Shown here piece after piece: positions 2 to 21,193 of a stretch of 24,991 nt of DNA (positions are counted from its first letter, which is position 1; every line of letters begins with the position of its first letter). The stretch comes from a virus. The notes beneath the pieces are model-generated. The model did not search any database. It saw nothing but the letters and a program-made list of their open reading frames with translations, and was not told the DNA's origin. A program made the translations under genes and the position numbers. The stretch is taken from the IMG/VR virus record IMGVR_UViG_3300011115_000012, positions 1 to 24,991 of that record; one strand, 5' to 3'.

Positions 2-79
2 CTAAACGGCGACTTGGATGTCGCGGGCATCCTCCCGGCGGTCGCCGTTGCTATTGAGGTTCTATGCCCGAGTCTGTAA
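2..79 (+). CDS. C-terminal end of an upstream gene (partial, tentative)
   Basis: The frame starting at base 2 is open from the window edge to a TAA at 77-79. It encodes about 25 residues reading LNGDLDVAGILPAVAVAIEV and then LCPSL. It would overlap the next start by 16 bases, which fits the tight packing seen throughout the window. The other two frames are less protein-like: one is very rich in Arg and Gly, and one has a stop at 3-5. The fragment is too short to assign a family or function. It could be chance open sequence. Confidence 0.35.
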   Translation, partial: LNGDLDVAGILPAVAVAIEVLCPSL

Positions 80-1977
80 ATGCCCTAGAGCAATATTACC
101 GTGACCTCGGGCCAGCGACCGCTAACCCTAATTTTCTGGCACAAGGTCGCAGGGCAAACGTGGCGCAGCGGTCAATGCCAGGACCAACAATGCAGGCAGC
201 CAACACCCAGCTCGCAAAAGAATTTAGCAGCATGGGGGATCGTGGCGCAATACCGGATCTCATCAACCGCGGATTAATTGCCAACACCGCAGGTCTGCCG
301 GTTGATCTCTTGAATACTGTTTTGCAATCCCTTGGACTGGGTGCAGAACAACCCGTTGGCGGTTCGGATTCAATTCGTCGGGCGCTGGAATATTACGGGT
401 TATCGTCAGACACCCAACGACCGATGCTTGAGACTCTTGCCGGACTGACCCCGCCAAAGGCTGTTATGGGAGCAGCTCGGGCAGCAGGACAAGGAGCAGA
501 AGCTGTAGGCAGGGCGGCGGCTCCGGTGGCTGGGCAGGCAATTGAGAATTACATGGTGCAATCGGGTTCTGTATTGCCGGTGGTTAAAATGGGCGGCGGT
601 AATTGGGTGAACAATTCTGTTGAAAAATCATTAGAAAACATAAAAGGTAATCTTATGGATTACCCTCGACCATTTTATGGTGCTCCGGATCATCCTGCAA
701 ATATTGCAACTATTGCAACTAATAATTGGGTTGATAAACAACTTACAAATTATGTAAAAAATCAAATGGGTACGGCTGGTGATCCAATAACAGCGTTAGC
801 AGAAAAAGGAATCTTGCATTTTGAGCCAGGCGCCACTAGTAGAACTCAATTGCCAAAAGAACTGTCGGCAAAAGTATCTCGCAGAATGTTAGATATGCCG
901 GAAGAAAACACAGCTGTATCAAACCTTGCTAAAACATGGGAAAACTATTCTGATTCCGCAATTACTGGCGCTCCATATAGACTTCAATTGCCAATGGTAA
1001 CGAAAGAAACTGCAAATCAAGAATTAAGTTTGTTGGGCGGAGATTTTGCGGTAAAAAATCCTAATGCGTTTGCATATGCAATGAATCGTGGGGCCGATAC
1101 ACAAGGTCTTGGCTTCAATAAATTATATGAAGAAATAAGAAATGCAACTTATTCCGGAGCTTCCCCGGCCAATAATTTACTTCCTAAAAATTTACAAATA
1201 AAACCAGAGTCACTTGAAAGGCTGTCTGTTCCGCAAGCGGTAGAGCGGGTAGCAAAAATAAATAAATGGAAAGCGTCCGAACAAATCAAGGCTGATTTAA
1301 ACCATTCTAAAAACGAAGCAACAATAATTGTAAAAGAATACCCAAATGAAGGTATGAATTTAGTTAGATTAAAACTTCCATCTGCTGAAATTCAACCTAA
1401 CAGAGACATAGCAAACAAAAGTTTAAAAGATGCCTTAAATTACGAAGGCAGAAAAATGAATCATTGCATTGGTTCGTATTGCCAAAAAGTAGCAATGCAA
1501 GACGGAACAGAGATTTATTCCTTAAGAGACAAAAAGGGAATTCCTCATGTAACAATTGAAGTTGAATCTTTTAAAATTCCTTACAAACCAGGTGAAGCGC
1601 AAAAATTAGCAGATGCACAAGGTTTAACTGGCGATGATTGGAATCGTTATGTTAACTCAAAAATAGCAGAAGGAAAAGAAACGGCAAATAGTGCAATTAA
1701 ATCAATACAAGGAAATTCAAATCAAAAACCAGCGGAAAAATATTGGCCAGCAATACAAGATTTTATAAATTCCAGAAATTGGATGAGCGCAAGAGATTCT
1801 TATAAAGTAGGTTTAATCAACAAAAGTGATTTAGTTGATGAATTCACAACTGACCAATTACAAAAAATGGGTAAAGGTGAATTTATTTCAAATAAAGATC
1901 TTAAATTGTTTAGAGCTAACAATCCTGGCGCTGCCAACCACGACGGTTGGGCAGATAAAACGCCACGAACATTTTAG
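64..1977 (+). CDS. Large phage protein with C-terminal PcfJ-like domain
   Basis: This is a 637-residue soluble protein. The ATG at 64 follows a GAGG ribosome site. Residues 1-180 are Ala/Gly/Pro-rich and resemble N-termini of other large virion or polyvalent phage proteins. A middle segment around residues 180-380 contains the phrase KQLTNYVKNQMGTAGDPI, which I remember from related phage proteins. Residues about 395-520 form a PcfJ-like domain. Its core is NHCIGSYC at 466-473, with Cys468 and Cys473, followed by YSLRDKKGIPHVTIEVE. PcfJ domains occur in phages and conjugative elements, and their biochemical role is not settled. After about residue 180 the gene becomes strongly AT-rich, unlike its start, which suggests a replaced or acquired module. 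Co-packaging with the ejection proteins is only inference. The family is fairly sure, the function is unknown. Confidence 0.8.
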   Translation: MPESVNALEQYYRDLGPATANPNFLAQGRRANVAQRSMPGPTMQAANTQLAKEFSSMGDRGAIPDLINRGLIANTAGLPVDLLNTVLQSLGLGAEQPVGGSDSIRRALEYYGLSSDTQRPMLETLAGLTPPKAVMGAARAAGQGAEAVGRAAAPVAGQAIENYMVQSGSVLPVVKMGGGNWVNNSVEKSLENIKGNLMDYPRPFYGAPDHPANIATIATNNWVDKQLTNYVKNQMGTAGDPITALAEKGILHFEPGATSRTQLPKELSAKVSRRMLDMPEENTAVSNLAKTWENYSDSAITGAPYRLQLPMVTKETANQELSLLGGDFAVKNPNAFAYAMNRGADTQGLGFNKLYEEIRNATYSGASPANNLLPKNLQIKPESLERLSVPQAVERVAKINKWKASEQIKADLNHSKNEATIIVKEYPNEGMNLVRLKLPSAEIQPNRDIANKSLKDALNYEGRKMNHCIGSYCQKVAMQDGTEIYSLRDKKGIPHVTIEVESFKIPYKPGEAQKLADAQGLTGDDWNRYVNSKIAEGKETANSAIKSIQGNSNQKPAEKYWPAIQDFINSRNWMSARDSYKVGLINKSDLVDEFTTDQLQKMGKGEFISNKDLKLFRANNPGAANHDGWADKTPRTF

Positions 1978-1988
1978 GAAAAAATATA

Positions 1989-2282
1989 ATGACCGCAGCC
2001 TGGACCCGCAAAGAAGGCAAAAACCCTGCCGGTGGCTTGAACGCCAAAGGCCGCGCCTCCTACAAGGCCGAGACTGGTGGAACCCTAAAGGCTCCGGTCA
2101 AGTCTGGCGACAATCCCCGCCGCGCCAGTTTTCTGGCTAGAATGGGCAACATGCCGGGTCCAATGGCAAAACCCAATGGGGAACCGACACGGCTGGCGCT
2201 GTCTCTGAAGGCGTGGGGAGCCAGTTCTAAGGTTGATGCTAAGTCAAAAGCCGCGGCGATCTCAAAGCGGAATAAAAGATGA
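1989..2282 (+). CDS. Small basic phage protein, probably DUF6321
   Basis: This is a 97-residue, strongly basic protein starting 11 bases after the previous stop, with an AGGAAA ribosome site. Its N-terminal pattern WTRKEGKNPAGGLNAKGRAS, then SGDNPRRASFLARMGNMPGP, and a C-terminal lysine-rich helix match a family I recognise as DUF6321. It is common beside packaging genes in phages. The Gly/Pro/Lys-rich N-terminal half looks extended, and the C-terminal 30 residues look helical. Its last bases overlap the methyltransferase start (ATGA, 2279-2282), so the two are probably translationally coupled. Function is unknown. Nucleic-acid or virion-DNA binding is an inference from charge alone. Confidence 0.75.
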   Translation: MTAAWTRKEGKNPAGGLNAKGRASYKAETGGTLKAPVKSGDNPRRASFLARMGNMPGPMAKPNGEPTRLALSLKAWGASSKVDAKSKAAAISKRNKR

Positions 2283-3499
2283 AGATTGAACAGGTAAAGC
2301 TCGATGCGCTGATTCCGTATGCTCGGAACAGCAGAACTCACTCCGATGCTCAAGTGGCTCAAATAGCTGCTTCCATAAAAGAATTTGGCTTTACCAACCC
2401 CGTTCTGATCGACGAGACGGGCAGCATTATTGCAGGCCATGGACGGGTGATGGCAGCGCGGAAGCTGGCGATTGCTGACGTTCCCAGTATTCGGCTCACC
2501 CATTTGACCGAGGCGCAGAAGAAAGCCTATGTTATCGCAGACAACAAGCTGGCCCTGAATGCGGGTTGGGATGACGAGATGCTGGCGGTGGAGCTCACCG
2601 ACCTGAAGGACATGGGCTTCGATCTAGACCTGACCGGCTTTAGCACCGACGAGATTGAGGATTTGCTGGCACCAGTGGGAACGGAGGGGCTGACAGACGA
2701 GGACGCTGTGCCGGAGGTGCCTGAAGCCCCTGTGACCGTCCTGGGGGACGTTTGGCTGTTGGGCAAGCATCGGGTGATGTGCGGGGATTCGACCAGCATT
2801 GATGCGGTTGAGAAGCTGATGGCGGGGGAGGGGGCTGACATGCTGCTGACCGACCCACCTTACAATGTGGCTTATGAAGGCGCAACAAAGCAGAAATTAA
2901 CCATTCAAAACGACAGCATGGGCGATGGCGAGTTTTGGCAGTTTTTGCGTGACGCGTTTGTAACCGCTGAAACTGCTATGAAAAATGGAGCTGTTTTTTA
3001 TATTTGGCACTCTGATTCGGAAGGATATAACTTTCGAGGCGCTTGCCAAGACGCCGGTTTTAAGGTTCGCCAGTGCTTGATATGGAAGAAATCGTCGCTT
3101 GTTATGGGAAGGCAAGATTATCATTGGAAGCACGAGCCATGTCTTTACGGATGGAAAGAAGGAGCTGGACACCTTTGGGCAGCAGATCGCAAGCAAACAA
3201 CTATCCTTGAGTTTGATAAGCCATCTCGCAACGGCGAGCATCCAACAATGAAGCCCGTAGGGTTGTTTGAATACCAGATGCTTAACAACACAAAGGGCGG
3301 GGATATTGTGCTCGACCTGTTTGGTGGATCTGGAACCACAATCATTGCCGCAGAAAAGAACGGGCGGTATGGTTACCTGATGGAACTCGACCCCAAATAC
3401 TGCGATGTAATCGTCCAACGCTGGCAGGAATTCACAGGACAGACAGCAACGCTGGAATCAAATGGTAAGCCGTTCATTTCGTTGAAGAAAGCCGCGTGA
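2279..3499 (+). CDS. ParB-like domain fused to DNA methyltransferase
   Basis: This 406-residue fusion has a ParB/Srx-like domain at residues 1-100, with the nucleotide-pocket motif GHGR at 53-56. A linker follows, then an S-adenosylmethionine-dependent DNA methyltransferase from about residue 155 to 400. The catalytic motif DPPY is at 192-195. The cofactor motif lies after it, as DLFGGSGT at 346-353, which is the beta-class order. DPPY in this class means N6-adenine or, less often, N4-cytosine methylation; the target site cannot be read from sequence. Such fusions are common in phages and usually lack a partner restriction enzyme, and none is seen here. Likely roles are protection from host restriction or marking DNA for packaging. 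The latter is suggested only by its position directly upstream of the terminase. Confidence 0.92.
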   Translation: MKIEQVKLDALIPYARNSRTHSDAQVAQIAASIKEFGFTNPVLIDETGSIIAGHGRVMAARKLAIADVPSIRLTHLTEAQKKAYVIADNKLALNAGWDDEMLAVELTDLKDMGFDLDLTGFSTDEIEDLLAPVGTEGLTDEDAVPEVPEAPVTVLGDVWLLGKHRVMCGDSTSIDAVEKLMAGEGADMLLTDPPYNVAYEGATKQKLTIQNDSMGDGEFWQFLRDAFVTAETAMKNGAVFYIWHSDSEGYNFRGACQDAGFKVRQCLIWKKSSLVMGRQDYHWKHEPCLYGWKEGAGHLWAADRKQTTILEFDKPSRNGEHPTMKPVGLFEYQMLNNTKGGDIVLDLFGGSGTTIIAAEKNGRYGYLMELDPKYCDVIVQRWQEFTGQTATLESNGKPFISLKKAA

Positions 3500-3518: not shown

Positions 3519-3866
3519 ATGTCATTTATTAAACCTCACAGACCAACCGATAAAACAAGGCAACAGGCGCAGAGTGCTTCAGGTCTCGGCTTGCCTCAAG
3601 ACCAAATTGCTGCGTTGATTGGAATAGCGCCTGACACGCTGAGAAAGCATTACGAATTAGAGCTTGGACTGGGCAAAGCTCAAGCCTCGGCTGCGGTGGC
3701 GAAAACCTTGTTCAACAAGGCGACGATTGGCCAGGACACCACCGCGATGATCTGGTGGACTAAATCCCAAATGAAGTGGTCAGAAACCGTCCGGCAGGAG
3801 TTGACCGGCAAGGACGGTGGCGGGATCGTGGTTCACATCAACAACCAGGACACCGACCTTGTTTAG
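3519..3866 (+). CDS. terS: Terminase small subunit (putative)
   Basis: This is a 115-residue protein placed immediately upstream of, and overlapping, the large terminase gene. Residues 15-55 have a helix-turn-helix look (QAQSASGLGLPQDQIAALIG, then the recognition-like helix PDTLRKHYELEL). Residues 55-95 are helical and could form the oligomerisation core, including WWTKSQMKW. The C-terminal tail is Gly-rich with a short beta segment. This layout fits small terminases, which bind the packaging start site and regulate the large subunit. The call rests on the HTH and the gene order, because small terminases diverge strongly. The ribosome site is weak (AAAAAG), and TTCTT/AAGAA around 3508-3520 could pair over the start. 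Confidence 0.75.
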   Translation: MSFIKPHRPTDKTRQQAQSASGLGLPQDQIAALIGIAPDTLRKHYELELGLGKAQASAAVAKTLFNKATIGQDTTAMIWWTKSQMKWSETVRQELTGKDGGGIVVHINNQDTDLV

Positions 3867-5208
3867 CGCCACCGCAGCCCAAAGCAGAGCTACTGGGCTG
3901 ATGACCGGCGATGCCAAGCACGTCATGCTGGTCGGCGGATCAAGGTCGGGCAAGACGTTTGTGGCTCTCCGAGCACTGATCATCCGGGCGACTCTGGCGC
4001 CGAAGTCTCGGCACGTTGTCCTGCGGTTTCGATTCAATCATGTGAAGTCGTCGGTTATTCTGGACACCTTTCCAAAGGTCATGAGCCTGTGCTTTCCGCA
4101 GCTCACTTACGTGATCGACAAGACTGACTGGTATGCAACCCTGCCGAACGGCTCCCAAATCTGGTTTGGTGGGCTGGACGACAAGGACCGCACTGAGAAA
4201 ATTCTAGGGCAGGAATACGCCACGATATTCTTTAACGAATGCAGCCAGATACCCCTCTCGGCTCGCAACATGGCGGTCACACGACTCGCACAGAACTGCG
4301 TGGCTACGGTAGGTGGTCAACAGCGGCAGATGCGTCTGAAAGCGTTTTACGACTGCAACCCTCCGAGCATGGCGCACTGGACGTATAAAATGTTTGTCAA
4401 AAAGATTGAGCCAGAATCCGGCAAAGCATTGGCCGACTTGCTCAACTTCAGCATGATGACCATTAACCCGCGGGATAATCTGGAGAACCTGCCACCTGAT
4501 TACATCAAGGAGTTGGAGAACCTGCCAGCCAGGATGCGGCAACGGTTCCTTGAGGGCAAGTTCGCAGACGTGGCCGCAGGTGCGCTTTGGAACATTGAGA
4601 TGATCGACACCTACCGCGAAACGACCAATCTGCCCGACATGCTGCGCGTGGTCGTGTCTGTTGATCCTTCCGGCAGCGGCGACACCGACAATGCGGGGAA
4701 CGACGAGATCGGGATTGTGGTGGCTGGCCTAGGCATTGACGGCCGAGCTTATGTTCTTGAAGATTGCACCATGAAGGCTGGACCGAGCGTTTGGGCCAAT
4801 GTTGTGGCAACTGCTTACGATCGCCACGCCGCGGATCTGGTGGTGGCCGAAAAGAATTATGGTGGTGAAATGGTCCGGCATGTGATAAAAAGTGCTAATC
4901 CACACCTAAAATGCGAGTTAATCAACGCATCGAGAGGCAAAGCGGTGAGAGCAGAACCCGTTTCCGCACTGACAGAACAGGGCAAGATCCGGTTTGGCGG
5001 CACGTTCCCAGAGCTGGAGGACGAGCTGTGCTCGATGACGACTAACGGTTACATGGGCGAACGCTCACCCAACCGCGCAGATGCTTTTGTCTGGGCAATG
5101 ACCAAGCTATTCCCTGGCATCATCAAGACCGATGCCAAAGCGCAACGCAAGCACGTTATGCCGACTCAGAACATTAACCGCGGTGCAACCAGTTGGATGG
5201 GAGCGTAA
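3817..5208 (+). CDS. terL: Terminase large subunit (ATPase-nuclease)
   Basis: This is the DNA-packaging motor, which couples ATP hydrolysis to DNA translocation through the portal and cuts concatemers. With the GTG start at 3817, the Walker A is GGSRSGKT at residues 40-47. The Walker B is YATIFFNE at 134-141, with catalytic Glu141 and Asn at the usual Asp position. The RNase H-like nuclease carries acidic residues Asp283 (SVDPSGSGD), Glu345 (VVAEKNYGG) and Asp422 (NRADAFVWAM). The length suits phage large terminases. The start is uncertain. The first 14 residues lie over the small-subunit reading frame and look unlike protein. A TTG at 3859 gives LFSATAAQ, where resemblance to relatives begins, and would leave an 8-base overlap. 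Confidence 0.96.
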   Translation: MAGSWFTSTTRTPTLFSATAAQSRATGLMTGDAKHVMLVGGSRSGKTFVALRALIIRATLAPKSRHVVLRFRFNHVKSSVILDTFPKVMSLCFPQLTYVIDKTDWYATLPNGSQIWFGGLDDKDRTEKILGQEYATIFFNECSQIPLSARNMAVTRLAQNCVATVGGQQRQMRLKAFYDCNPPSMAHWTYKMFVKKIEPESGKALADLLNFSMMTINPRDNLENLPPDYIKELENLPARMRQRFLEGKFADVAAGALWNIEMIDTYRETTNLPDMLRVVVSVDPSGSGDTDNAGNDEIGIVVAGLGIDGRAYVLEDCTMKAGPSVWANVVATAYDRHAADLVVAEKNYGGEMVRHVIKSANPHLKCELINASRGKAVRAEPVSALTEQGKIRFGGTFPELEDELCSMTTNGYMGERSPNRADAFVWAMTKLFPGIIKTDAKAQRKHVMPTQNINRGATSWMGA

Positions 5209-5500: not shown

Positions 5501-5898
5501 TGCCGGATTGGGATAAAGCGGTTTACGGTGTTGGCGTTCGGGATGTGTATCCCGGCGAGGATAAGTATTTTAAAGACAACCCAAGCGTTACGGGAATGGC
5601 TGCGGAGGACAACAAGATTATCCTTAACCCGTATAGCAAGCTGTCCGAAAAAGAAAAGCGGTCGGTAATGATGAACGAAGCGGCGCGAGTGCATATGCGG
5701 CAGGGAATGATGGAAGCCCCGCGCTATGATTTGTCACCAGAACAAACAAAAGCCTTTGCAAACTACAGCAAAAGTATAGAAGATCAACGGCAAACGATAG
5801 CCGCACGAATATTATCTGGCGATCCCTCGGCGTTGCAACCTACGCCAGACCAGCTAGAATATGTGGGCAAATTGCGTCAATTTATGGGCGTTAAATAG
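5500..5898 (+). CDS. Hypothetical phage protein (132 aa)
   Basis: This is a 132-residue soluble protein coupled to both neighbours (TAATG upstream, TAGTG downstream). Recognisable stretches are ILNPYSKLSEKEKRSVMMNE followed by AARVHMRQG, and a helical C-terminus with LTPDQ-like spacing. I recall similar phrasing in unannotated phage proteins next to portals but know no function. There is no signal peptide or membrane segment. The NEAARVH segment is not a metallopeptidase HExxH motif. A virion or assembly role is possible only from position between terminase and portal. Confidence 0.72.
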   Translation: MPDWDKAVYGVGVRDVYPGEDKYFKDNPSVTGMAAEDNKIILNPYSKLSEKEKRSVMMNEAARVHMRQGMMEAPRYDLSPEQTKAFANYSKSIEDQRQTIAARILSGDPSALQPTPDQLEYVGKLRQFMGVK

Positions 5899-8144
5899 TG
5901 GCCTATCAAGACACGGGAATTAACGAAGCTGGCGCGGTGGCGTCGGGCGGCGCCAAGCCCGACCGCGACAACGGCGACATGCTGGCAACAATGCGTACGC
6001 GCCTGACGATGGCGATCAGTGCGTATTCGGATTCCCGTGAGGATGAGCTAGACGACCTGCGCTTTCGCGCCGCCTCGCCCGACAACCAATGGCAGTGGCC
6101 CGCCGACGTGCTGGCGACTCGCGGTTCGGTGCAAGGCCAGACGATCAACGCCAGACCTTGCCTGACCATCAACAAGCTGCCGCAGCACGTCCTGCAAGTC
6201 ACGAACGACCAGCGGCAGAACCGGCCCTCGGGCAAAGTTATCCCCGCCGACGACAAGGCTGACGTGGAAGTGGCCGAGATATTTAACGGCATCGTGCGGC
6301 ATATCGAGTATATCTCGGACGCCGACGTGGCCTACGACACCGCCTGCGACAACCAGGTCACCTTTGGTGAGGGTTACTTCCGCATCCTGACCGAATACTG
6401 CGACGACAACAGCTTTGAGCAGGATCTGCGGATCGGGCGTATTCGGGATTCATTCAGCGTCTACATGGACCCCACAATCCAAGATCCTTGCGGTTCAGAT
6501 GCTGAATGGTGCTTCATCAATCAGGAAATCACCAAAGACGAATATGAGCGTGAGTTTCCCGATGCCGCAACGCTGTCGAGCTTGGCTTACGGCGTAGGCG
6601 ACGGGCAACTAAACGCGTGGATCAACCAAGACACGGTGCGGATTGCCGAGTATTTCTACATCAAGCACGAAGCCAAGAAGCTCAACCAATACCCCGGCGG
6701 GATGACCGCTATGGCGGGATCACCGAAAGCAAAGCAAATTGAAATGATGGGTTTGGCTGCAACAAAAACCCGTGATGTAGACGTTCGGACGGTCAAATGG
6801 TGCAAGACCAACGGTTTCGAAGTGCTGGAAGAACGCGATTGGGCGGGTAAATACATCCCCGTTATCCGCGTCATTGGCAACGAATTTGAAATTGATGGCC
6901 GCATGTACGTCAGCGGATTGGTGCGGAACGCCAAAGACGCCCAGCGCATGTATAACTACTGGGTGAGCCAAGAGGCCGAAATGCTGGCGCTGGCCCCCAA
7001 GGCACCGTTTATCGGCTACGGCGGTCAGTTTGAGGGTTACGAGCAGCAGTGGAAAACGGCCAACATCAACAACTGGCCGTATTTGGAAGTCAATCCAGAC
7101 GTGACCGATGGCAATGGTGGCGTTCTTCCGTTGCCACAACGCGCACCTCCGCCGCTGGCGCAGAATGGTCTGTTGCAGGCTAAAATGGGTGCCGCGGATG
7201 ACATTAAAGGCACCACAGGCCAATACGATGCCAGCCTCGGATCTCAGAGTAACGAAGTCTCTGGCCGCGCTATCCTAGCTCGTGAAAAGCAGGGCGACAC
7301 CGGCACTTATCACTTTATCGACAACCTTGCCCGCGCCATTCGCTACGCGACGCGGCAACTGGTCGATCTAATTCCAAAAATTTACGACACACAGCGCATT
7401 GCGCGGATTATTGGGATTGATGGCGAAACTGACCAGGCGATGATTGATCCGAATCAGCCAGAGCCAGTGCGTAAGATTGTGGACCAGCAGACCGGCGCGA
7501 CCATCAAGAAGATCTACAACCCCAATGTCGGGAAATACGACGTTGCGGTCACCACTGGTCCAAGCTACATGACCAAGCGGCAGGAATCTTTGGATGCCAT
7601 GTCTCGCCTCCTGCAAGGCAATCCAAACCTGTGGGCCGTGGCTGGGGATCTGTTTATCAAGAACATGGACTGGCCTGGTGCTCAAGAGATGAGCAAACGC
7701 TTTGCCAAGACCATTGATCCGAAACTGATGGATGACTCAGACGCCTCGCCAGAACTTGCCCAAGCACAACAGCAGATGCAGGCAATGAGTCAAGAAATGC
7801 AGCAGATGCACCAGATGCTGCAAAACGTCAGCCAGTCGATGGAAGCGCAGACGCTGAAGGTCAAAGAGTTTGAGGCAGATGTAAAAGCCTACGATGCGGA
7901 AACCAAACGCATTAGCGCGGTGCAGGCCGGAATGTCCCCTGAGCAGATTCAAGACATTGTGATGGGAACCGTCCACGGCATGATTACTTCTGGCGATCTG
8001 ATTAACGAGATGCCAGGGCGCGATGTTGATATGCCCGGTATGCCAGAGATGCCGCAGGAAGGCATGGAACAGATGATGCCGCCGCAAGGTATGCCGCCTC
8101 AAATGCCCCCGCAGGGGATGCCACCGATGGGAGTTCCGCAATGA
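5898..8144 (+). CDS. Portal protein, P22-like
   Basis: The portal is a dodecameric ring at the head vertex through which terminase pumps DNA, and the docking site for tail accessory proteins. The 748-residue length is close to the P22 portal (725). Recognisable segments include the N-terminal DSREDELDDLRFRAASPDNQ, CLTINKLPQHVLQVTNDQRQ near residue 90, and the family hallmark TGQYDASLGSQSNEVSGRAI near residues 440-460. From about residue 616 a long Gln/Met-rich helix would correspond to the helical barrel or crown. The final 35 residues are Met/Pro/Gln repeats. The GTG start overlaps the preceding TAG by one base and no strong ribosome site is visible, so translation is probably coupled. Confidence 0.95.
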   Translation: MAYQDTGINEAGAVASGGAKPDRDNGDMLATMRTRLTMAISAYSDSREDELDDLRFRAASPDNQWQWPADVLATRGSVQGQTINARPCLTINKLPQHVLQVTNDQRQNRPSGKVIPADDKADVEVAEIFNGIVRHIEYISDADVAYDTACDNQVTFGEGYFRILTEYCDDNSFEQDLRIGRIRDSFSVYMDPTIQDPCGSDAEWCFINQEITKDEYEREFPDAATLSSLAYGVGDGQLNAWINQDTVRIAEYFYIKHEAKKLNQYPGGMTAMAGSPKAKQIEMMGLAATKTRDVDVRTVKWCKTNGFEVLEERDWAGKYIPVIRVIGNEFEIDGRMYVSGLVRNAKDAQRMYNYWVSQEAEMLALAPKAPFIGYGGQFEGYEQQWKTANINNWPYLEVNPDVTDGNGGVLPLPQRAPPPLAQNGLLQAKMGAADDIKGTTGQYDASLGSQSNEVSGRAILAREKQGDTGTYHFIDNLARAIRYATRQLVDLIPKIYDTQRIARIIGIDGETDQAMIDPNQPEPVRKIVDQQTGATIKKIYNPNVGKYDVAVTTGPSYMTKRQESLDAMSRLLQGNPNLWAVAGDLFIKNMDWPGAQEMSKRFAKTIDPKLMDDSDASPELAQAQQQMQAMSQEMQQMHQMLQNVSQSMEAQTLKVKEFEADVKAYDAETKRISAVQAGMSPEQIQDIVMGTVHGMITSGDLINEMPGRDVDMPGMPEMPQEGMEQMMPPQGMPPQMPPQGMPPMGVPQ
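8074..8141 (+). repeat. Imperfect tandem repeat encoding Met-Pro-Pro-Gln
   Basis: The 3' end of the portal gene carries an imperfect repeat with the consensus ATGCCNCCNCAGGGN. It encodes MPPQGMPPQMPPQGMPP and then a final GVPQ. It is a low-complexity tail after the predicted helical barrel. Such repeats can vary in copy number, so relatives may differ in length here. Confidence 0.7.
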
Positions 8145-8503
8145 AATGCGCTGATTTCGTAGGGATGCTGTTCTTGGCTCGGGATGTGGCGCACAGCGTT
8201 CACTTGAATACCCGCAGCTACTCCAAGCATGTAGCCTTGAACATCTTTTATGATCGTATTGTGGGCGCGGCAGACGATTTTACGGAAGCCTACCAAGGGC
8301 GGCATGGTCTGATCGGCCCGATCTCGCTCATGTCGGCCAAGAAAACGGCCAACATCATTGAGTTTCTGGAAGATCAATTGAAAGAAATTGAAAACGCAAG
8401 GTATGATATTGTGGATAAGTCTGACACTTCGTTGCAGCAGCTCATCGACAACATTATTGAGATATACCTTCGCACGCTCTACAAACTTCGTTTTCTAGCT
8501 TGA
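8141..8503 (+). CDS. DUF5856-like small helical protein
   Basis: This is a 120-residue protein overlapping the portal stop as ATGA, with GGGAG upstream. The N-terminus FVGMLFLARDVAHSVHLNTR, then SKHVALNIFYDRIV and FTEAYQGRHGLIGP, match a phage family I identify as DUF5856. Its helical layout, with two His residues (His18 and His21) and acidic residues such as Asp38 and Glu49, recalls a four-helix Dps/ferritin-like fold; that fold is an inference. No membrane segment is present. It sits between portal and scaffold genes, but a structural role is not established. Confidence 0.72.
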   Translation: MKCADFVGMLFLARDVAHSVHLNTRSYSKHVALNIFYDRIVGAADDFTEAYQGRHGLIGPISLMSAKKTANIIEFLEDQLKEIENARYDIVDKSDTSLQQLIDNIIEIYLRTLYKLRFLA

Positions 8504-8511
8504 GGTAAATT

Positions 8512-8784
8512 ATGTCAGCCAACTATAAAAGTATCAGCGCCACCAATCAAGTCAAGGTCGGTCTTACGGTCTTGAAAGGCATCTTTGTCAGCGCCGCAAG
8601 CGCAACGCCGACCATTACCGTCTTTGATTCTGCCACGGCAGCTAACACTGACCCGACGATATTGGCCGTGTTTACTCCCGCAGCGGCAGGTATTTATACG
8701 TTCACCGCGAACGGCATCACGGCAAGCAAAGGACTTTACGTTGTCATATCGGGAACGGTAGTGGCAACCATTATTTACGAATAA
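8512..8784 (+). CDS. Small beta-rich phage protein (90 aa)
   Basis: This is a 90-residue protein with GAGGT upstream of its ATG. It is composed almost wholly of alternating Val/Ile/Thr/Ala strands: VKVGLTVLKGIFVSAASATP, then TITVFDSATAANTDPTILAV and GLYVVISGTVVATIIYE. It is predicted to be a small beta-sandwich. Similar short proteins occur just before scaffold and capsid genes in related phages, from memory. A head or neck accessory role is plausible but unproven. There is no signal peptide or membrane segment. Confidence 0.7.
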   Translation: MSANYKSISATNQVKVGLTVLKGIFVSAASATPTITVFDSATAANTDPTILAVFTPAAAGIYTFTANGITASKGLYVVISGTVVATIIYE

Positions 8785-8789
8785 CCGTA

Positions 8790-8821
8790 CTGGCGCGGTA
8801 CGCCAGGGATTCTGAGGAATC
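8790..8821 (+). promoter_or_regulatory. Two hairpins in the scaffold leader, one covering the ribosome site
   Basis: Between the 90-residue gene and the scaffold there are two perfect inverted repeats. CTGGCG/CGCCAG (8790-8806) has a 5-base loop, and GATTC/GAATC (8808-8821) has a TGAG loop. The scaffold's GAGGAA ribosome site is split between the loop and 3' arm of the second hairpin. An alternative pairing CGTAC/GTACG overlaps the first hairpin, so two exclusive folds are possible. Translational control of scaffold is inferred; no U-tract follows, so it is not a standard terminator. Confidence 0.45.
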
Positions 8822-8826
8822 AAGCC

Positions 8827-9606
8827 ATGTCTGACGAAGTAATAGCGGAACAACCCGCGCCGGAACAGGACGCAACGGCTGCGCCTGAACCGATAGCAAA
8901 TGCGCCGGAAGCAGCAGAAGCATCCGAAGGCGAGCAGAAAGAAACTCCGAAGGTATTTACCCAAGAGGATTTGGACGCGGCCATCGGCAAGAGGCTTGCA
9001 CGAGAACAAAGAAAGTGGGAGCGCGAAGCAAGGCAGGCCGAAGCACCAAAGCCCGTCCCTGTAGAGCATGTAAAGCCGGAACAATATACGACGACCGAGG
9101 AATACGTTGATGCGTTAACGACTTCCAAAGCCGCCCAAATTGTCCAGCAGCAACAGTTTGCGAAACAGCAACAGGAATTGTTGGGGAACTATCACGACAA
9201 GGAAGAAGATGCGCGGAGTAAATACGAGGACTTCGAACAAGTCGCGTACAACCCCAAGCTACCGATCACCGATGTGATGGCTCAAACAATTCAAGCCTCG
9301 GATAACGGCCCCGATATTGCATACTATCTCGGCACAAACCCCAAGGAAGCTGACCGCATAGCCCAACTTCAACCGTTCTTGCAGGCAAAAGAAATAGGAA
9401 AATTGGAAGCGAAAATTGCTTCTGAACCCGTTACAAAACGCACATCCAGCGCACCTGCGCCGATTTCACCTGTCACAGCTCGCGGAGGTCAATCCAGCGG
9501 TTTTGATACCACTGATCCAAGGTCGATTAAAGCAATGACCACAACCCAGTGGATTGAAGCTGAGAGAGCCAGACAAGTGAAAAAGCAGGAAGCGAGGAAC
9601 CGCTAA
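8827..9606 (+). CDS. Capsid scaffolding protein
   Basis: Scaffolds direct coat protein assembly into a procapsid and leave before the head matures. This 259-residue protein has the expected build. An acidic, Ala/Pro/Glu-rich disordered N-terminus (1-45) precedes FTQEDLDAAIGKRLAREQRK and a charged coiled coil (about 45-75). A Gln-rich helix (IVQQQQFAKQQQELL) and a helical middle containing DNGPDIAYYLGTNPKEADRI follow. The basic C-terminus (ARQVKKQEARNR) is typical of the coat-binding end of P22-like scaffolds. It lies directly upstream of the capsid gene, and its ribosome site GAGGAA is partly hidden in a hairpin. Sequence similarity among scaffolds is low, so the call rests on architecture and position. 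Confidence 0.87.
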   Translation: MSDEVIAEQPAPEQDATAAPEPIANAPEAAEASEGEQKETPKVFTQEDLDAAIGKRLAREQRKWEREARQAEAPKPVPVEHVKPEQYTTTEEYVDALTTSKAAQIVQQQQFAKQQQELLGNYHDKEEDARSKYEDFEQVAYNPKLPITDVMAQTIQASDNGPDIAYYLGTNPKEADRIAQLQPFLQAKEIGKLEAKIASEPVTKRTSSAPAPISPVTARGGQSSGFDTTDPRSIKAMTTTQWIEAERARQVKKQEARNR

Positions 9607-9627
9607 TTACTTTTTAGGAGTTTTTTC

Positions 9628-10839
9628 ATGGCTAACAGCCTACTGACCATTGATATGATAACGAGGAAGTGTCTCGAAATACTTGAGAACAACCTTGTCC
9701 TTTCACGTAACGTGAACAAAGAATACGACGACAGCTTTGCCGTCGAAGGTGCCAAGATCGGCTCGACCCTGCGGATTCGTCTGCCGGATCGCGCGCTGGT
9801 GACCGACGGCGCCGCCCTGCAAGTTCAGGACGACAACGAGCAATACACCACGCTGACCGTTTCCAGCCAGAAGCACATCGGCATTAACTTTACTTCTGCC
9901 GAGCTGACCATGCAGTTGGACGACTTCGCGGAACGTGTTTTGAAGCCGCGTATCAGCCAATTGGCGTCCAGTGTGGATGCTGACGTTGCCAACGCTTACA
10001 AGTCTATTTTCAACACCGTTGGCACCCCGGGCACCACGCCGGCCACCGCGCTGGTTCTGTTGCAAGCGCAACAGAAGCTGAACGAGTCGGCGGCTCCCAT
10101 GTCGCCGCGATACGCCACCGTGAACCCTGCCGCTAACGCTGGCCTGGTCAACGGCATGACCGGTTTCTTTAACCCGACGGGCACAATTTCCCGCCAGTTC
10201 AAGACCGGCATGATGGGTGAGGGTGTTCTTGGCTTTGATGAGATGAATATGTCTCAGTCAATTGTCAACCACACCACGGGCAGTCGTGCGGGCACCATTC
10301 TGGTGAACGGTGCGGTTAGCACGCAAGGGCAATCCACCATCAGCATTGACGGTCTTACCGGTGCAACTGACACGGTAACTGCGGGTGATGTGTTTACCAT
10401 TGCTGGCGTCTATGCGGTCAACCCGCAGACCCGTCTTAGCACTGGTAGCCTGCAACAGTTTGTCGTGACTGCGGCACAAACGGGTGCTGGTAATGCTTTG
10501 GCAAACATGGCTATCTCGCCGCCCATGTACACGGCCAGCAACGCGTTGGCAACCATTGATGCGTTCCCCGCTGACAACGCCGCGGTGACGTTCGTGGGAA
10601 CCGCGTCTACCGTGTATCCGCAAAACTTGGTCTATCACAAGAACGCGATTACGCTGGCTACGGCTGACCTCTTGCTCCCGCAAGGTGTCGATATGGCTTC
10701 GCGTCAAGTGCATAACGGGATCTCGATGCGTATCGTGCGTCAGTACGATATTAACAACGACCGTATGCCTTGCCGTGTCGATGTGCTGTATGGTTTCAAC
10801 ACCATTCGCCCACCGATGGCTTGCCGTATCTGGGGTTGA
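9628..10839 (+). CDS. Major capsid protein, P22 coat-like
   Basis: This is the main shell protein with an HK97-type fold. It has 403 residues, close to the 430 of P22 coat. It begins MANSLLTIDMITRKCLEILE, with NVNKEYDDSFAVEGAKIGST and GINFTSAELTMQLDDFAERV soon after; these are characteristic of the P22 coat family. Residues about 215-310 (from SRAGTILVNG through SPPMYTAS) are strand-rich and match the place of the P22 insertion domain. The end, VRQYDINNDRMPCRVDVLYG, is also typical. A strong TAGGAG ribosome site precedes the ATG, stronger than most in the window, as expected for the most abundant virion protein. Confidence 0.95.
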   Translation: MANSLLTIDMITRKCLEILENNLVLSRNVNKEYDDSFAVEGAKIGSTLRIRLPDRALVTDGAALQVQDDNEQYTTLTVSSQKHIGINFTSAELTMQLDDFAERVLKPRISQLASSVDADVANAYKSIFNTVGTPGTTPATALVLLQAQQKLNESAAPMSPRYATVNPAANAGLVNGMTGFFNPTGTISRQFKTGMMGEGVLGFDEMNMSQSIVNHTTGSRAGTILVNGAVSTQGQSTISIDGLTGATDTVTAGDVFTIAGVYAVNPQTRLSTGSLQQFVVTAAQTGAGNALANMAISPPMYTASNALATIDAFPADNAAVTFVGTASTVYPQNLVYHKNAITLATADLLLPQGVDMASRQVHNGISMRIVRQYDINNDRMPCRVDVLYGFNTIRPPMACRIWG

Positions 10840-10846
10840 TAAAACT

Positions 10847-10880
10847 GCTTCCGCCTAGCGCGGGGGCATCTTAATTTTTA
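10847..10880 (+). terminator. Weak hairpin terminator or attenuator after the capsid gene
   Basis: GCTTCCGC (10847-10854) can pair with GCGGGGGC (10860-10867) around the loop CTAGC. This gives 8 base pairs, two of them G-U, followed by ATCTTAATTTTTA. The U tract is broken, so partial termination or RNA end protection is more likely than a full stop. The ribosome site of the next gene lies just downstream. Confidence 0.45.
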
Positions 10881-10892
10881 GGAGAAACAATC

Positions 10893-11315
10893 ATGGCACT
10901 TCCTTCAGTTGGTGGCGGCTATCAGTTTACTGATGGCAATACGAATGAACTGGAAATCGATACCCAAGCAGCACCGCAAACGGCAACGTCCACGGCAACT
11001 TTGACTACCACGCAAGTTTTGAATGGCCTGTTGGTAGTAGATCCAACGACTACGGCTTCAAGTCTTACCATGCCTACGGCAACCGCAATCGACGCGGTAA
11101 TGACCAACATGAAAACCAACAGCACGTTTCGGCTGACGGTTATTAATCTTGGCACCAGCACCGGCGTAGTTACGATGGTGGTTGGAACCGGCATTACTGC
11201 GGTAGGCAATCTGGTTGTGGCTATCACCGGCAGTGCGGCTGGCGTTGGTGGTGCGGCTCAGTTCCTGTTCCGCAAAACCGGCACCGCTGCGTACACCGTT
11301 TATCGGGTAGCTTAA
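10893..11315 (+). CDS. Putative capsid decoration or head accessory protein
   Basis: This is a 140-residue Thr/Val/Ala-rich protein directly after the capsid gene, with a strong AGGAG site. After a short N-terminus (MALPSVGGGYQFTDGNTNEL) come strand-like repeats such as TATLTTTQVLNGLLVVDPTT, TFRLTVINLGTSTGVVTMVV and AAQFLFRKTGTAAYTVYRV. I remember the phrase around TTQVLNGLLVVDP from predicted virion proteins of other phages. Position and beta-rich build suggest a shell decoration or stabilising protein, but no named family was recognised with confidence. The gene is followed by the clearest terminator in the window. Confidence 0.72.
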   Translation: MALPSVGGGYQFTDGNTNELEIDTQAAPQTATSTATLTTTQVLNGLLVVDPTTTASSLTMPTATAIDAVMTNMKTNSTFRLTVINLGTSTGVVTMVVGTGITAVGNLVVAITGSAAGVGGAAQFLFRKTGTAAYTVYRVA

Positions 11316-11322
11316 GTAACAA

Positions 11323-11356
11323 CACCTCGCGGCGTAACAACCGCGAGGTGGTTTTT
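11323..11356 (+). terminator. Strong intrinsic terminator between head and tail genes
   Basis: CACCTCGCGG (11323-11332) and CCGCGAGGTG (11341-11350) form a perfect 10-bp stem around the loop CGTAACAA, followed by GTTTTT. It begins 8 bases after the stop of the 140-residue gene. It should cut much of the transcription coming from the head genes, so tail genes are either read through at lower level or driven from elsewhere. Confidence 0.88.
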
Positions 11357-11367
11357 AAGGATTTGAT

Positions 11368-11541
11368 ATGGTCATCTACATGCGGCATCCCGTTCATGGT
11401 AACAAGGTCGCTATTGCAGAGGCCGAAGCTGAAGCGGATGAAAAGAACGGTTGGGAACGCTTTGAACTGGGCGACCCCGAAAATGAAGTCAACGAATTGG
11501 CTAAACCTCGCGGCAGACCGCGTAAGGAGCTTGCGGAATGA
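11368..11541 (+). CDS. Small phage protein with AT-hook-like C-terminus (57 aa)
   Basis: The ATG at 11368 follows AAGGA and lies just after the terminator U-tract. The protein starts MVIYMRHPVHGNKVAIAEAE, has NGWERFELGD in the middle, and ends KPRGRPRKELAE. The pattern YMRHPVHG with a later NGWERF is one I have seen in other phages at this place. RGRP at residues 48-51, flanked by basic residues, is the core of an AT-hook, a minor-groove DNA-binding element. Its stop overlaps the next start (ATGA, 11538-11541). Function is unknown. DNA contact at the head-tail junction is inference. Confidence 0.8.
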   Translation: MVIYMRHPVHGNKVAIAEAEAEADEKNGWERFELGDPENEVNELAKPRGRPRKELAE

Positions 11542-12251
11542 CCACCACGGCTGGCGATCAGATCAATGGGGCGCTGCGGCTAATCGGTCAATTAGCCGAA
11601 GGTGAAACGCCATCGGCATCGACTTCGCAAGATTCTTTGACCGCAATGAACCAGATGCTTGATAGCTGGTCGTCTGAACGTCTGTCCGTGTTCTCAACGC
11701 AAGATCAAATATTTACTTGGCCTGCTTCTACCGCAACACGCACTCTGGGGCCAACGGGTGATTTTGTTGGCAACCGTCCGGTATTGGTGGACGATTCGAC
11801 TTATTTCCGTGACCCGTCAAACAACATCAGCTTTGGCATCAAGCTGATAAACCAAGCGCAATACAACGGCATTGCGGTAAAAACCGTCACCAGCACTTAC
11901 CCGCAGGTCTTGTTTGTAAACATGACCATGCCAAACATAGAAATGACGATCTATCCGGTGCCGACTAAAGCGTTGCAGTGGCATATTGTCAGCGTCACCG
12001 AGCTGGTCGAACCGGCTACGCTAGCAACCGTTTTGGTGGTGCCTCCGGGGTATATCCGAGCTTTCCGATTTAACTTGGCGTGCGAGATCGCCGCTGAGTT
12101 TGGCGTCGAGCCACCGCCCCAAGTGCAACGGCTTGCGATGACCAGCAAGCGCAACATCAAGCGCATCAACAACCCCGACGACGTAATGAGCCTGCCGTAT
12201 AGCATCGTGGCGACTCGCCAGCGGTTTAATATCTACAGCGGGAATTATTGA
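11538..12251 (+). CDS. Tail accessory / head-completion protein, P22 gp4-like
   Basis: P22 gp4 binds the portal after packaging, helps hold the DNA in and forms the platform for gp10. This 237-residue protein starts MTTTAGDQINGALRLIGQLA, and SQDSLTAMNQMLDSWSSERL follows, a hallmark of this family. The middle, GIKLINQAQYNGIAVKTVTS, and the C-terminal helix FRFNLACEIAAEFGVEP are also typical. It is longer than P22 gp4 (166), mainly through a beta-rich middle. A strong AAGGAG site lies inside the preceding gene. The gp10-like gene follows at once, as in P22. Confidence 0.88.
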   Translation: MTTTAGDQINGALRLIGQLAEGETPSASTSQDSLTAMNQMLDSWSSERLSVFSTQDQIFTWPASTATRTLGPTGDFVGNRPVLVDDSTYFRDPSNNISFGIKLINQAQYNGIAVKTVTSTYPQVLFVNMTMPNIEMTIYPVPTKALQWHIVSVTELVEPATLATVLVVPPGYIRAFRFNLACEIAAEFGVEPPPQVQRLAMTSKRNIKRINNPDDVMSLPYSIVATRQRFNIYSGNY

Positions 12252-18389: not shown

Positions 18390-19526
18390 ATGAGCTTCTG
18401 GACAGACATACGCGATACCGTTGAATCGGCGGCGGTTGTTGCCGGTAATTATTTCCTGCCGGGTTCTGGCTTGGTTACGTCTAATTTAGCTAGTTCAGGT
18501 TCACAAGACCAGTTGAACTCTGGCCTCGGCCGTGTTGCTATGCTTGGTAGCGGTGTGGCCGGTGGAGTCGGGGGAAACCTGTCAAATTACGGCAAGTTTT
18601 ACGACGCTGCGGGTAATTTCCTCACAGGCACAGAATCTAGCGCACAACAATTCATCAACGCGGATATACAGCAGCTAATCGGTCAAGGCTATACGCCAGA
18701 ACAAGCAGCTAACCTTGCAAACGCTAGCTTTTCTGCGGCTCCCGTTGGCGGCGCGTCTGCAACGATGCCCGGTGGCACAACCGACTGGACAAAATACCTT
18801 AGTAACCCGTCAGTGCTTGGGTCTGCCATCAGTGGCGGTGCAGGACTGCTTGGCGCGGGTCTACAAGCCAACGCCGCAAGGGAGGCAGCACAAGGTATTG
18901 CCGACGCAAACCTTAGCTCCAATCAGCTTATGGCGCGGATGAACGAGCAGAATAGGGCAAGGCAGGAACCGTTCTACCAAGCTGGTTTGCGTGCGCTTCC
19001 TGCTTACACGCAAGGCGTGATGCCTGGTGGCGATCTGGTCAGACCGTTTGCAATGTCTGATTATCAAGCCGATCCAGGCTACGGTTTTCGCATGTCCGAA
19101 GGAATGAAAGCCTTGGACCGCAGCGCCGCCAGCCGCGGCAACCTGTTATCTGGATCAACGCTAAAAGGTGCAGAACGGTTTGGGCAGGATATGGCAAGCC
19201 AAGAATACAATAATGCGTATAACCGCTACGTTGGAAATCAGGCCACGCAGCGCAACGCATTGGCCGGTTTAACGGGCTTTGCACCGACCGCATCGTCTGC
19301 CATGCAAGCCGGTGATACGGCTTACGGCAGCAACGCGGCAAACCTTGCCAGCAACACGGCCAACGCAATGGCTGGCGCTGGTGCTACTCGCGCATCCTCT
19401 TACGGTAACGCTTTAGCGGGTATTGGGCAAAACATCTACAACACGATGAATCCCAATCCCATAAACGCAATGATGGCCTCGTATATGCAATCGCAAATGG
19501 CTCCTAAAACTGGAGTAACTGGATAA
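18390..19526 (+). CDS. Ejection / DNA transfer protein, P22 gp7-like
   Basis: This is the first of three consecutive genes that resemble the P22 internal proteins gp7, gp20 and gp16, which are stored in the head and injected with the DNA. The 378-residue protein has a Gly/Ala-rich, weakly hydrophobic N-terminal half, including SVLGSAISGGAGLLGAGLQA. Then comes a conserved block: QADPGYGFRMSEGMKALDRS, AASRGNLLSGSTLKGAERFG and SQEYNNAYNRYVGNQATQRN. This block is characteristic of the DNA transfer protein family found in many phages. GGAGG lies upstream and the stop overlaps the next ATG. It is longer than P22 gp7 (229), mainly at the N-terminus. Confidence 0.85.
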   Translation: MSFWTDIRDTVESAAVVAGNYFLPGSGLVTSNLASSGSQDQLNSGLGRVAMLGSGVAGGVGGNLSNYGKFYDAAGNFLTGTESSAQQFINADIQQLIGQGYTPEQAANLANASFSAAPVGGASATMPGGTTDWTKYLSNPSVLGSAISGGAGLLGAGLQANAAREAAQGIADANLSSNQLMARMNEQNRARQEPFYQAGLRALPAYTQGVMPGGDLVRPFAMSDYQADPGYGFRMSEGMKALDRSAASRGNLLSGSTLKGAERFGQDMASQEYNNAYNRYVGNQATQRNALAGLTGFAPTASSAMQAGDTAYGSNAANLASNTANAMAGAGATRASSYGNALAGIGQNIYNTMNPNPINAMMASYMQSQMAPKTGVTG

Positions 19527-21193
19527 TGGAATCTTTTAATTTCGGTGCATTTGACCCGACCATTGGGGCGCGGATCGCGGCTATCCCGCAAGAGGCGCAG
19601 AAACAACAGACCGCCAACATGCTGCAAGCCATGCAGATGCAGGGGGCTATGAATCAGAATGAGTTAGCTAGATATTCTTTGGCATCGGCGCAGAGGTCTG
19701 ACGCATCGCAAAACGCAGTCAATGCCGCGTTAAAAGGTTCTATTGTAGATGGAAAAATAAATTACGATTTATTGACATCTAATTTAGCTGGTGGCGCAGG
19801 GGCTTCTAAAATACCTGATTTTCTAAAAGCCAGAAGCGAAGAAGAAAAAAGAACTCAAGAGATAGAAAAAACAAAAGGCGACATAGCAAAACAAGCTAGA
19901 GAAGCGGTTGATTCAGAATTAACTTCATTTACTAAAAACGCATTTAAAGTTACTGACGTTCCCTCTCTTACAAATCATTTAAAAGCCTTTTATGAAAATC
20001 CATTGCTTGGGAAAATAGCTTCAAAATTTAAACCATTTGACCAAGCATTGAATGACGATATTAAACAGATAAGCACCCCAGAAGGATTGCGGCAATGGCA
20101 AGCTGAAAACGCAAACCTTACTGGAAAAGAATTAACTGATTTGTTGTTGAAAGTAACAACAACCACTGCCAATTTGGGAGACGTAAGCAGAGAAACACAA
20201 AGGGGTGGAATGGGTCAGACAATAGGCGTTCCAGTTGATACGCCTATGGGAGTATCACCAAACACAACTGCAACAATAAACGCTGCCAGAAAAAACCATT
20301 TAGAAAATCTAGCCCAGCAGGGATGGACATTTGACACTGAGCGCGGCATTGCTGTTAATGCAAGGCAAGGCATATCACGGCCAATTTCTACGTTAATGGC
20401 CCCAGTTGGCGGCGGCTTTTCTGCTGCGCCTGCTGTTGGCGGTGCGCCTGCCCCAAGCATTGCTGCTCCTGGTGGCGGTGTTCCTGGGCAGCGTCAAGCA
20501 CCAGCGGGGCAACCCGTGGCAGGGCCAAATGTCTTGGGGCCAAAACCGGAAAAACCTATATGGAATTCTGAAGCGCAAGGGTTTATTTACCCACCGTCAC
20601 AAGATAACCCGGCAGGTAAATTTGTACCCGTTCAAGGAATGGAAGGAAAATCACTTACCGAAGTGCAAGCAAAGTCTGCTTTGTTTGGTTCTGCTATGCA
20701 ACAAGCCAATACCGTAATTACAGAAATTGAAAAAAAAGGAACATTCACATCTGCAATTGTTCCAGGGTTGCTAGAAGGAATAGTAAAGTTAGCTCCGCTT
20801 GGTGTAGGTGATGCCGCAGCAAATGCAATTGAATCAGCTTTTAGAACAGATCCAACTGGGTTAATCGGCCCCAATGAAAATCAACAAAGATTAGCTCAAG
20901 CACAATTAGGTTTTGCAATTGGTTATTTAAGATCTACATCTGGCGCAGCTTTTGGCGCACAAGAAGTTGCAAACACAATAAAAGAATATTTCCCGTTACA
21001 AGGAGAAAGCAAAATAGTTATTAAGCAAAAATCTGAATCAAGAGAGCGAGCAATTCAAGGAATGCGACTTGCCGCTGGAAAATCTGGTTCTGATTTTATA
21101 AATAAATATGTGCCAAAAGTAAATACAGAAACATCGCCATCAAATTTATCTGAGCCACCTCCTGGTGCAGTAAGGCCGCGGGGGGATAGGTAA
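19526..21193 (+). CDS. Internal virion / ejection protein, gp20-like
   Basis: This 555-residue protein overlaps the preceding stop by one base. It has a Gln/Ala/Met-rich helical N-terminus (EAQKQQTANMLQAMQMQGAM), a long charged helical region to about residue 260, and a Pro/Gly/Ala-rich linker at 290-345. The C-terminal block holds FAIGYLRSTSGAAFGAQEVA near 466, then NTIKEYFPLQGESKIVIKQK and RAIQGMRLAAG. I recall this C-terminal block in large internal proteins of many podoviruses. The position between gp7-like and gp16-like genes supports the call, while direct similarity to P22 gp20 is not obvious. Much of the gene, roughly 19740-21130, is AT-richer than the head genes. Confidence 0.78.
   Translation: MESFNFGAFDPTIGARIAAIPQEAQKQQTANMLQAMQMQGAMNQNELARYSLASAQRSDASQNAVNAALKGSIVDGKINYDLLTSNLAGGAGASKIPDFLKARSEEEKRTQEIEKTKGDIAKQAREAVDSELTSFTKNAFKVTDVPSLTNHLKAFYENPLLGKIASKFKPFDQALNDDIKQISTPEGLRQWQAENANLTGKELTDLLLKVTTTTANLGDVSRETQRGGMGQTIGVPVDTPMGVSPNTTATINAARKNHLENLAQQGWTFDTERGIAVNARQGISRPISTLMAPVGGGFSAAPAVGGAPAPSIAAPGGGVPGQRQAPAGQPVAGPNVLGPKPEKPIWNSEAQGFIYPPSQDNPAGKFVPVQGMEGKSLTEVQAKSALFGSAMQQANTVITEIEKKGTFTSAIVPGLLEGIVKLAPLGVGDAAANAIESAFRTDPTGLIGPNENQQRLAQAQLGFAIGYLRSTSGAAFGAQEVANTIKEYFPLQGESKIVIKQKSESRERAIQGMRLAAGKSGSDFINKYVPKVNTETSPSNLSEPPPGAVRPRGDR

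Follow-up and report, generated by a model that had tools for sequence, protein, structure and literature searches.

The gene at positions 64-1977 of the analyzed virus record (a 24,991-base IMG/VR record, referred to as the window) almost certainly combines a constant leader with tail cassettes that are swapped at one genomic slot, judging from the comparison of its alleles. The whole is probably a phage polymorphic effector gene, consisting of a leader and an exchangeable cassette whose product would be delivered to the host. The window belongs to a tailed phage; its genes include those for a P22-type portal and a terminase as well as lysis-type genes (Pfam, PHROGs). The following features were annotated in the gene:

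64-1977, + strand: whole gene, leader and PcfJ-type tail (ORF of 637 aa; also present in two contigs with 99.9% identity)
64-579, + strand: leader, residues 1-172, common to alleles with different tails (nucleotide identity to L050, L014, L005, L006 and L288)
202-531, + strand: PVDL..EKPVGGS module, residues 47-156 (profile match E 2.1e-31; 42 viral loci)
544-579, + strand: junction motif ENYMVQSGSVLP, residues 161-172 (consensus ahead of seven, safely six or seven, unrelated tail clusters)
583-1974, + strand: PcfJ-type tail, residues 174-637, exchanged as a unit (GC 36%, GC3 23%; AlphaFold2)
1429-1566, + strand: PcfJ core, residues 456-501 (PF14284 match; conservation in 62 sequences)

The genes downstream are:

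1989-2282, + strand: DUF6321 gene, right-hand anchor of the exchange (PF19846, E 7.6e-25; nucleotide identity resumes at 1964-1989)
2279-3499, + strand: ParB-like N-terminus fused to a DNA methyltransferase (PF01555, PHROG 498)
3519-3866, + strand: terminase small subunit (PHROG 309)
3817-5208, + strand: terminase large subunit (PF03237/PF17289)

Exchange of Tails at One Genomic Slot

In the related contigs, all of which are metagenome contigs, the slot has the order VRR-NUC-like gene, leader gene, DUF6321 and terminase. The flanking DNA is about 80-92% identical between the window and these contigs. The similarity of L050, L005, L006 and L288 to the window ends at nt 559-583 and begins anew at 1964-1989; the stretches in between are dissimilar. 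L014 matches on the left side only, and L213, L274, L282 and L292 match on the right side only, from 1976. The nucleotide identity of the leader was 90-92% to L050, L014, L005 and L006 and 79% to L288; none was found past 559-583.

The tails behind this leader are of different types. An ART-like tail was identified in L050 (PF18760, E 1.3e-9) and, by similarity to L050, in L014 and L288, while L005 and L006 carry DUF7178-like tails. The tail of L213, L274, L282 and L292 is a separate type with a GC content of 35%. L266, whose small terminase subunit is 93% identical, has yet another tail, which by eye resembles part of the giant protein of L298. DUF6321 is the next gene in alleles with PcfJ, ART, DUF7178-like and L213-type tails, and across most of these phages the protein identity is 94-98% for the terminase large subunit and 91-96% for the portal.

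Among all fetched loci, the leaders of the 28 proteins with the junction motif form one BLAST cluster and the tails form seven. Once the motif is removed, a single cluster persists for 24 of 26 leaders; the other two are units inside giant proteins. The tail of L192 shows marginal similarity to the ART tails (E 5e-5), so the number of tail clusters is safely given as six or seven, and L192 was dropped as a wholly separate type. Further tails were sought by pattern-based searches, and the tail types given here are those among the matches listed; because of this search design, the absence of further tails means little.

Since the leader and both flanks are constant, the tails are unrelated and the breaks lie at two fixed places, cassette exchange is the best explanation. 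The simplest route would be homologous recombination within the conserved leader on one side and the gene downstream on the other. The earlier note had postulated a swapped module on a common N-terminal part, which agrees with the single front, the different rears and the coinciding breaks at one slot. The alignment of homologs, suggested there as a check, was carried out and revealed no end-to-end alignment with the same composition step, but one N-terminus paired with different C-termini.

The PcfJ allele of the window recurs in L012 and L013 with about 99.9% identity (IMG/VR 3300011335 and 3300011339). At exactly this slot it is essentially confined to one lineage, namely the window, L012 and L013. 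An artefact of assembly or binning that joined unrelated sequences might be suspected, as every relative is a metagenome contig. However, the window junction recurs in 3300011335 and 3300011339, both 99.9% identical to the window; two contigs share the L005/L006 junction and five the L213-type junction, and all of them break at the junction motif. Such an artefact is regarded as extremely improbable.

The tail of the window gene is separated from the next conserved gene by 11 bases; in L050, L274 and L288, the two genes touch or overlap. In none of these four was a small ORF found behind the tail and ahead of that conserved gene. This bears on a further explanation, in which the gene would encode a MuF-like polymorphic toxin that is phage-borne, serves competition between bacteria and is accompanied by an immunity gene. 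A constant N-terminus with variable C-termini would fit such a toxin (PMC5576092), but a MuF domain was not detected with Pfam or PHROGs, and the exchanged piece has no immunity gene, which disfavors a toxin-immunity arrangement, although an immunity gene could sit elsewhere. We consider this explanation very unlikely.

Some further observations were made on the surroundings of the slot. The gene at 2279-3499 has a domain swap of its own: its middle (window 2838-3380) differs from L006, L213, L274, L282 and L292, and its ends are 80-95% identical to them at the DNA level. The DUF6321 gene at 1989-2282 is stand-alone, and PHROG matches place DUF6321 C-terminally in larger phage proteins (for example phrog_3477, 850-926 of 928); its relatives are encoded in at least 599 viral stretches. 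At window 8141-8503, a 120-aa protein is encoded that resembles the ORF in the slot of L252, L254-L263, L267 and L268, which gives the impression of a move or a displacement.

Composition of the Gene

A GC-rich front and an AT-rich rear had been noticed in the gene before, and both were confirmed. In stretches of 120 bases, the GC content is 59-66% at 421-600 but 35-38% at 541-840, and it reaches 26% at 1801-1920. A single change point fits best at codon 179 (nt 601), across which GC drops from 56.1 to 35.9% and GC3 from 49.2 to 22.7%. The likelihood ratio at this point was 64.1, whereas 100 codon shuffles yielded 18.1 at most. At fourfold-degenerate sites, G or C was found in 51 of 110 positions of the front and 43 of 182 of the rear (58% in the other window genes). 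The change point and the homology break are no more than about 40 nt apart. The composition break is thus real, but the front, previously estimated at about 540 bases, measures about 520 bases according to the homology break at 559-583. Likewise, the rear is AT-rich as described, but this is not mainly the PcfJ-like domain, since most of the AT-rich rear precedes the PcfJ core. In standalone genes, the GC content of the tail is also lower than that of the leader, for example 60 to 35% in L274 and 59 to 43% in L005.

The earlier note had taken the composition break inside one reading frame as a sign of a swap. The swap is supported by the alleles, but the step itself is the weaker evidence. Of the 17 window genes testable by length, only the gene at 21193-23028 clearly exceeds its shuffles besides the gene under study (likelihood ratio 17.0 vs. 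13.5), and it is conserved end to end in relatives. Furthermore, the mean GC content of PcfJ modules is 5 points lower than that of their flanks (86 distinct proteins) and 7.1 points lower than that of the ORF portion preceding them (84 proteins). Because PcfJ modules are AT-richer nearly everywhere and the gene at 21193-23028 shows a step without exchange, the GC step is weak evidence when taken alone, and composition was rejected as proof of exchange; an import is compatible with the step but not demonstrated by it.

The same two observations speak for a single protein without any exchange, whose halves differ only in amino-acid or codon make-up. This explanation is refuted by the alleles, which show one leader and unrelated tails at one slot. 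In addition, the PcfJ module of the window lies 17 GC points below its flank, the extreme of the family compared to the mean of 5, and at fourfold sites 22 points below its upstream part compared to a mean of 8.5. The explanation without exchange is given practically no weight.

Two putative ejection-type genes at window 19526-23028 have a low GC3 (30 and 36). As the second is conserved end to end, low GC in this region is no mark of exchange. A scan for promoters and terminators around the gene at 64-1977 gave no more sites than in shuffled sequences.

The Leader and the Junction Motif

The junction motif follows the consensus [ED][NEQD][YH]M..[ST]G..LP, with the shared form ENYMV.SG..LP. The preceding module, whose fuller motif is PVDL..EKPVGGS[DE], matched no Pfam or PHROG family (residues 47-156). 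The proteins that contain it are mostly about 350 to 2,300 aa in length, and it is located at their start, in the middle or at the C-terminal end. PcfJ, ART-PolyVal, DUF7178, SLT transglycosylase, DdrB-ParB and ParB_N domains were found alongside. Of the 52 immediate neighbors of genes with this module in other phages, at least 22 match portal families, and the terminase large subunit accounts for at least 17. The PVGGS module is a previously undescribed module that recurs in giant phage polyvalent proteins, mostly at loci flanked by terminase and portal genes.

In shorter leaders, the PVGGS module is missing, whereas the start (VN.LPA..NPN.AAQG) and the junction are retained. The AlphaFold2 model of the leader has a pLDDT of 48 and gives no confident fold, so the leader is possibly a plain linker. 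In the collection of cultured phages, tblastn with three PVGGS-type leader queries gave no match, and a query of the short type matched at chance level only. Sequence relatives in the PDB were found neither for the leader nor for the PcfJ module (best E above 0.5).

Two related proteins were observed in addition. L298 encodes a 2196-aa polyvalent protein on the reverse strand (5502-12092) with two leader-junction units, one followed by a PcfJ module and the other by ART. The leader-type protein of L268 (3406-4236) has a tail that matches LPD23 and, weakly, the putative metallopeptidase family DUF6782.

The PcfJ-Type Tail

The match to PF14284 at residues 456-501 reached 22.8 bits (E 8.7e-5), which is below the curated cut-off of 25, and the protein is therefore termed PcfJ-like rather than a formal member. 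The PcfJ-like match with Cys468 and Cys473 recognized in the earlier note is nevertheless real, as 58 of 62 members of the module family match PF14284 (best E 1.2e-10). The module spans about 460 aa, includes an N-terminal subdomain that is conserved, and has at least 217 viral relatives. With 62 relatives, AlphaFold2 modeled its fold confidently, at a pLDDT of 88.1 and a pTM of 0.80. Across the 62 sequences, Glu499 is invariant, His467 is found in 60, Cys468 in 58 (otherwise mostly Ser) and Cys473 in 54. Tyr472, Arg488, Asp489 and His495 are nearly invariant, and the window protein has every conserved residue. This pattern weakly suggests that the module may be an enzyme using the conserved His-Cys pair.

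Matches to the module in a viral structure library were PcfJ-like proteins of uncultured phages. The structural matches in the PDB (VIA) were nearly all GNAT-fold chains or acetyltransferases over model residues 240-411; the best of them had a Z of 8.2, an rmsd of 3.9 and 123 aligned residues, a Z level that unrelated models also reach. Foldseek found nothing significant with the model (GNAT E 0.15), and hhalign of the module against a small GNAT set gave a probability under 1%, scarcely above column-shuffled controls. Compared with the GNAT motif A (Q/RxxGxG/A), the PcfJ family has the loop QxKGxxN, which is SIQGNSN in the window. The GNAT-like topology of the model is taken as a lead, and a GNAT-like acyl transfer by the module is rather unlikely.

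In the literature, nearly all matches to PcfJ were names of C. elegans plasmids (pCFJ), and in the collection searched no publication pairing PcfJ-like with phage or PcfJ with polyvalent proteins was found.

Proposed Function

Polyvalent proteins have been proposed to be packaged and injected with the phage DNA (Iyer et al., 2017; PMC5512222). Based on this proposal and on the gene context, delivery by the virion is just favored for the protein described here. The conserved leader (residues 1-172), ending in the junction motif, would be followed by an exchangeable effector cassette, here of the PcfJ type. The leader may serve packaging or injection with the DNA, a role that the earlier note had also conjectured and that the gene context fits, and after entry the tail would act early on the new host. 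Either way, the gene product probably acts on the infected bacterium.

The main rival is a never-packaged intracellular protein. Such a cytoplasmic accessory effector would be made after infection for anti-defence or host take-over, its leader would be a spacer or oligomerisation segment, and its tails would be traded as host defences vary. The genes upstream are nuclease-like, the gene is absent in many relatives that have the 120-aa ORF in the slot, and the leader has no predicted fold, all of which would suit this alternative. The gene is located between a nuclease-like gene and the DUF6321 and methyltransferase genes, outside the structural block, so early expression is possible. In contrast, the leader module recurs in proteins encoded directly between terminase and portal genes, and the tail types are those of phage polyvalent proteins (ART-PolyVal, LPD23 and PcfJ in giant proteins). 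The cytoplasmic effector is a lesser, though serious, possibility.

A more specific form of virion delivery can be formulated. It would comprise a virion-delivered single-effector polymorphic class without immunity genes, in which a leader ending in ENYMV[KR][ST]GG[IV]LP is both the packaging or injection signal and the trading border between compact genes and giant polyvalent proteins, and in which one such effector, PcfJ, acts as a His-Cys enzyme whose fold is GNAT-like but divergent. Taken with all its parts, this is unlikely.

If the proposed reading is true, a short tag marks the start of effectors in many uncultured phages, which would allow a systematic collection and testing of tails, and the leader becomes testable as an injection signal. 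The uncharacterised PcfJ family, found on plasmids and in phages, would join the exchanged phage effectors, and its biochemistry would become testable.

Comparison With Known Systems

For MuF toxins, a role in bacterial competition has been proposed (Jamet et al., 2017; PMC5576092). As in these phage proteins, the N-terminus encoded by the window gene is constant and the C-terminal effectors vary. It differs in the N-terminus itself, which has no MuF domain, and in the exchanged cassette, which contains no immunity ORF.

The phage polyvalent proteins share with the window-type genes the effector types ART-PolyVal and LPD23, late-gene neighborhoods, the leader module and the PcfJ modules in giant multidomain proteins. 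The window gene is located upstream of DUF6321, methyltransferase, terminase and portal genes, in accordance with a late-gene neighborhood. The main text of PMC5512222 does not mention PcfJ. Unlike polyvalent proteins, window-type genes occupy one slot, and in each of them a fixed leader and junction precede one effector; a single effector was recognized in the window protein, whereas its relatives L298 and L046 are multidomain proteins.

The tail resembles the PcfJ family (PF14284) in the His-Cys core and the flanking strands, but the unit of 460 aa is about three times as long as the Pfam model (147 positions).

CdiA/Rhs-type polymorphic toxins have a conserved motif at the border between the constant and the variable part, as is the case for the window gene. 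They differ from the window system, which is found in a phage context and has neither secretion machinery nor, in the exchanged cassette, an immunity gene. Altogether, the gene is classed as a variant of the phage polymorphic/polyvalent effectors.
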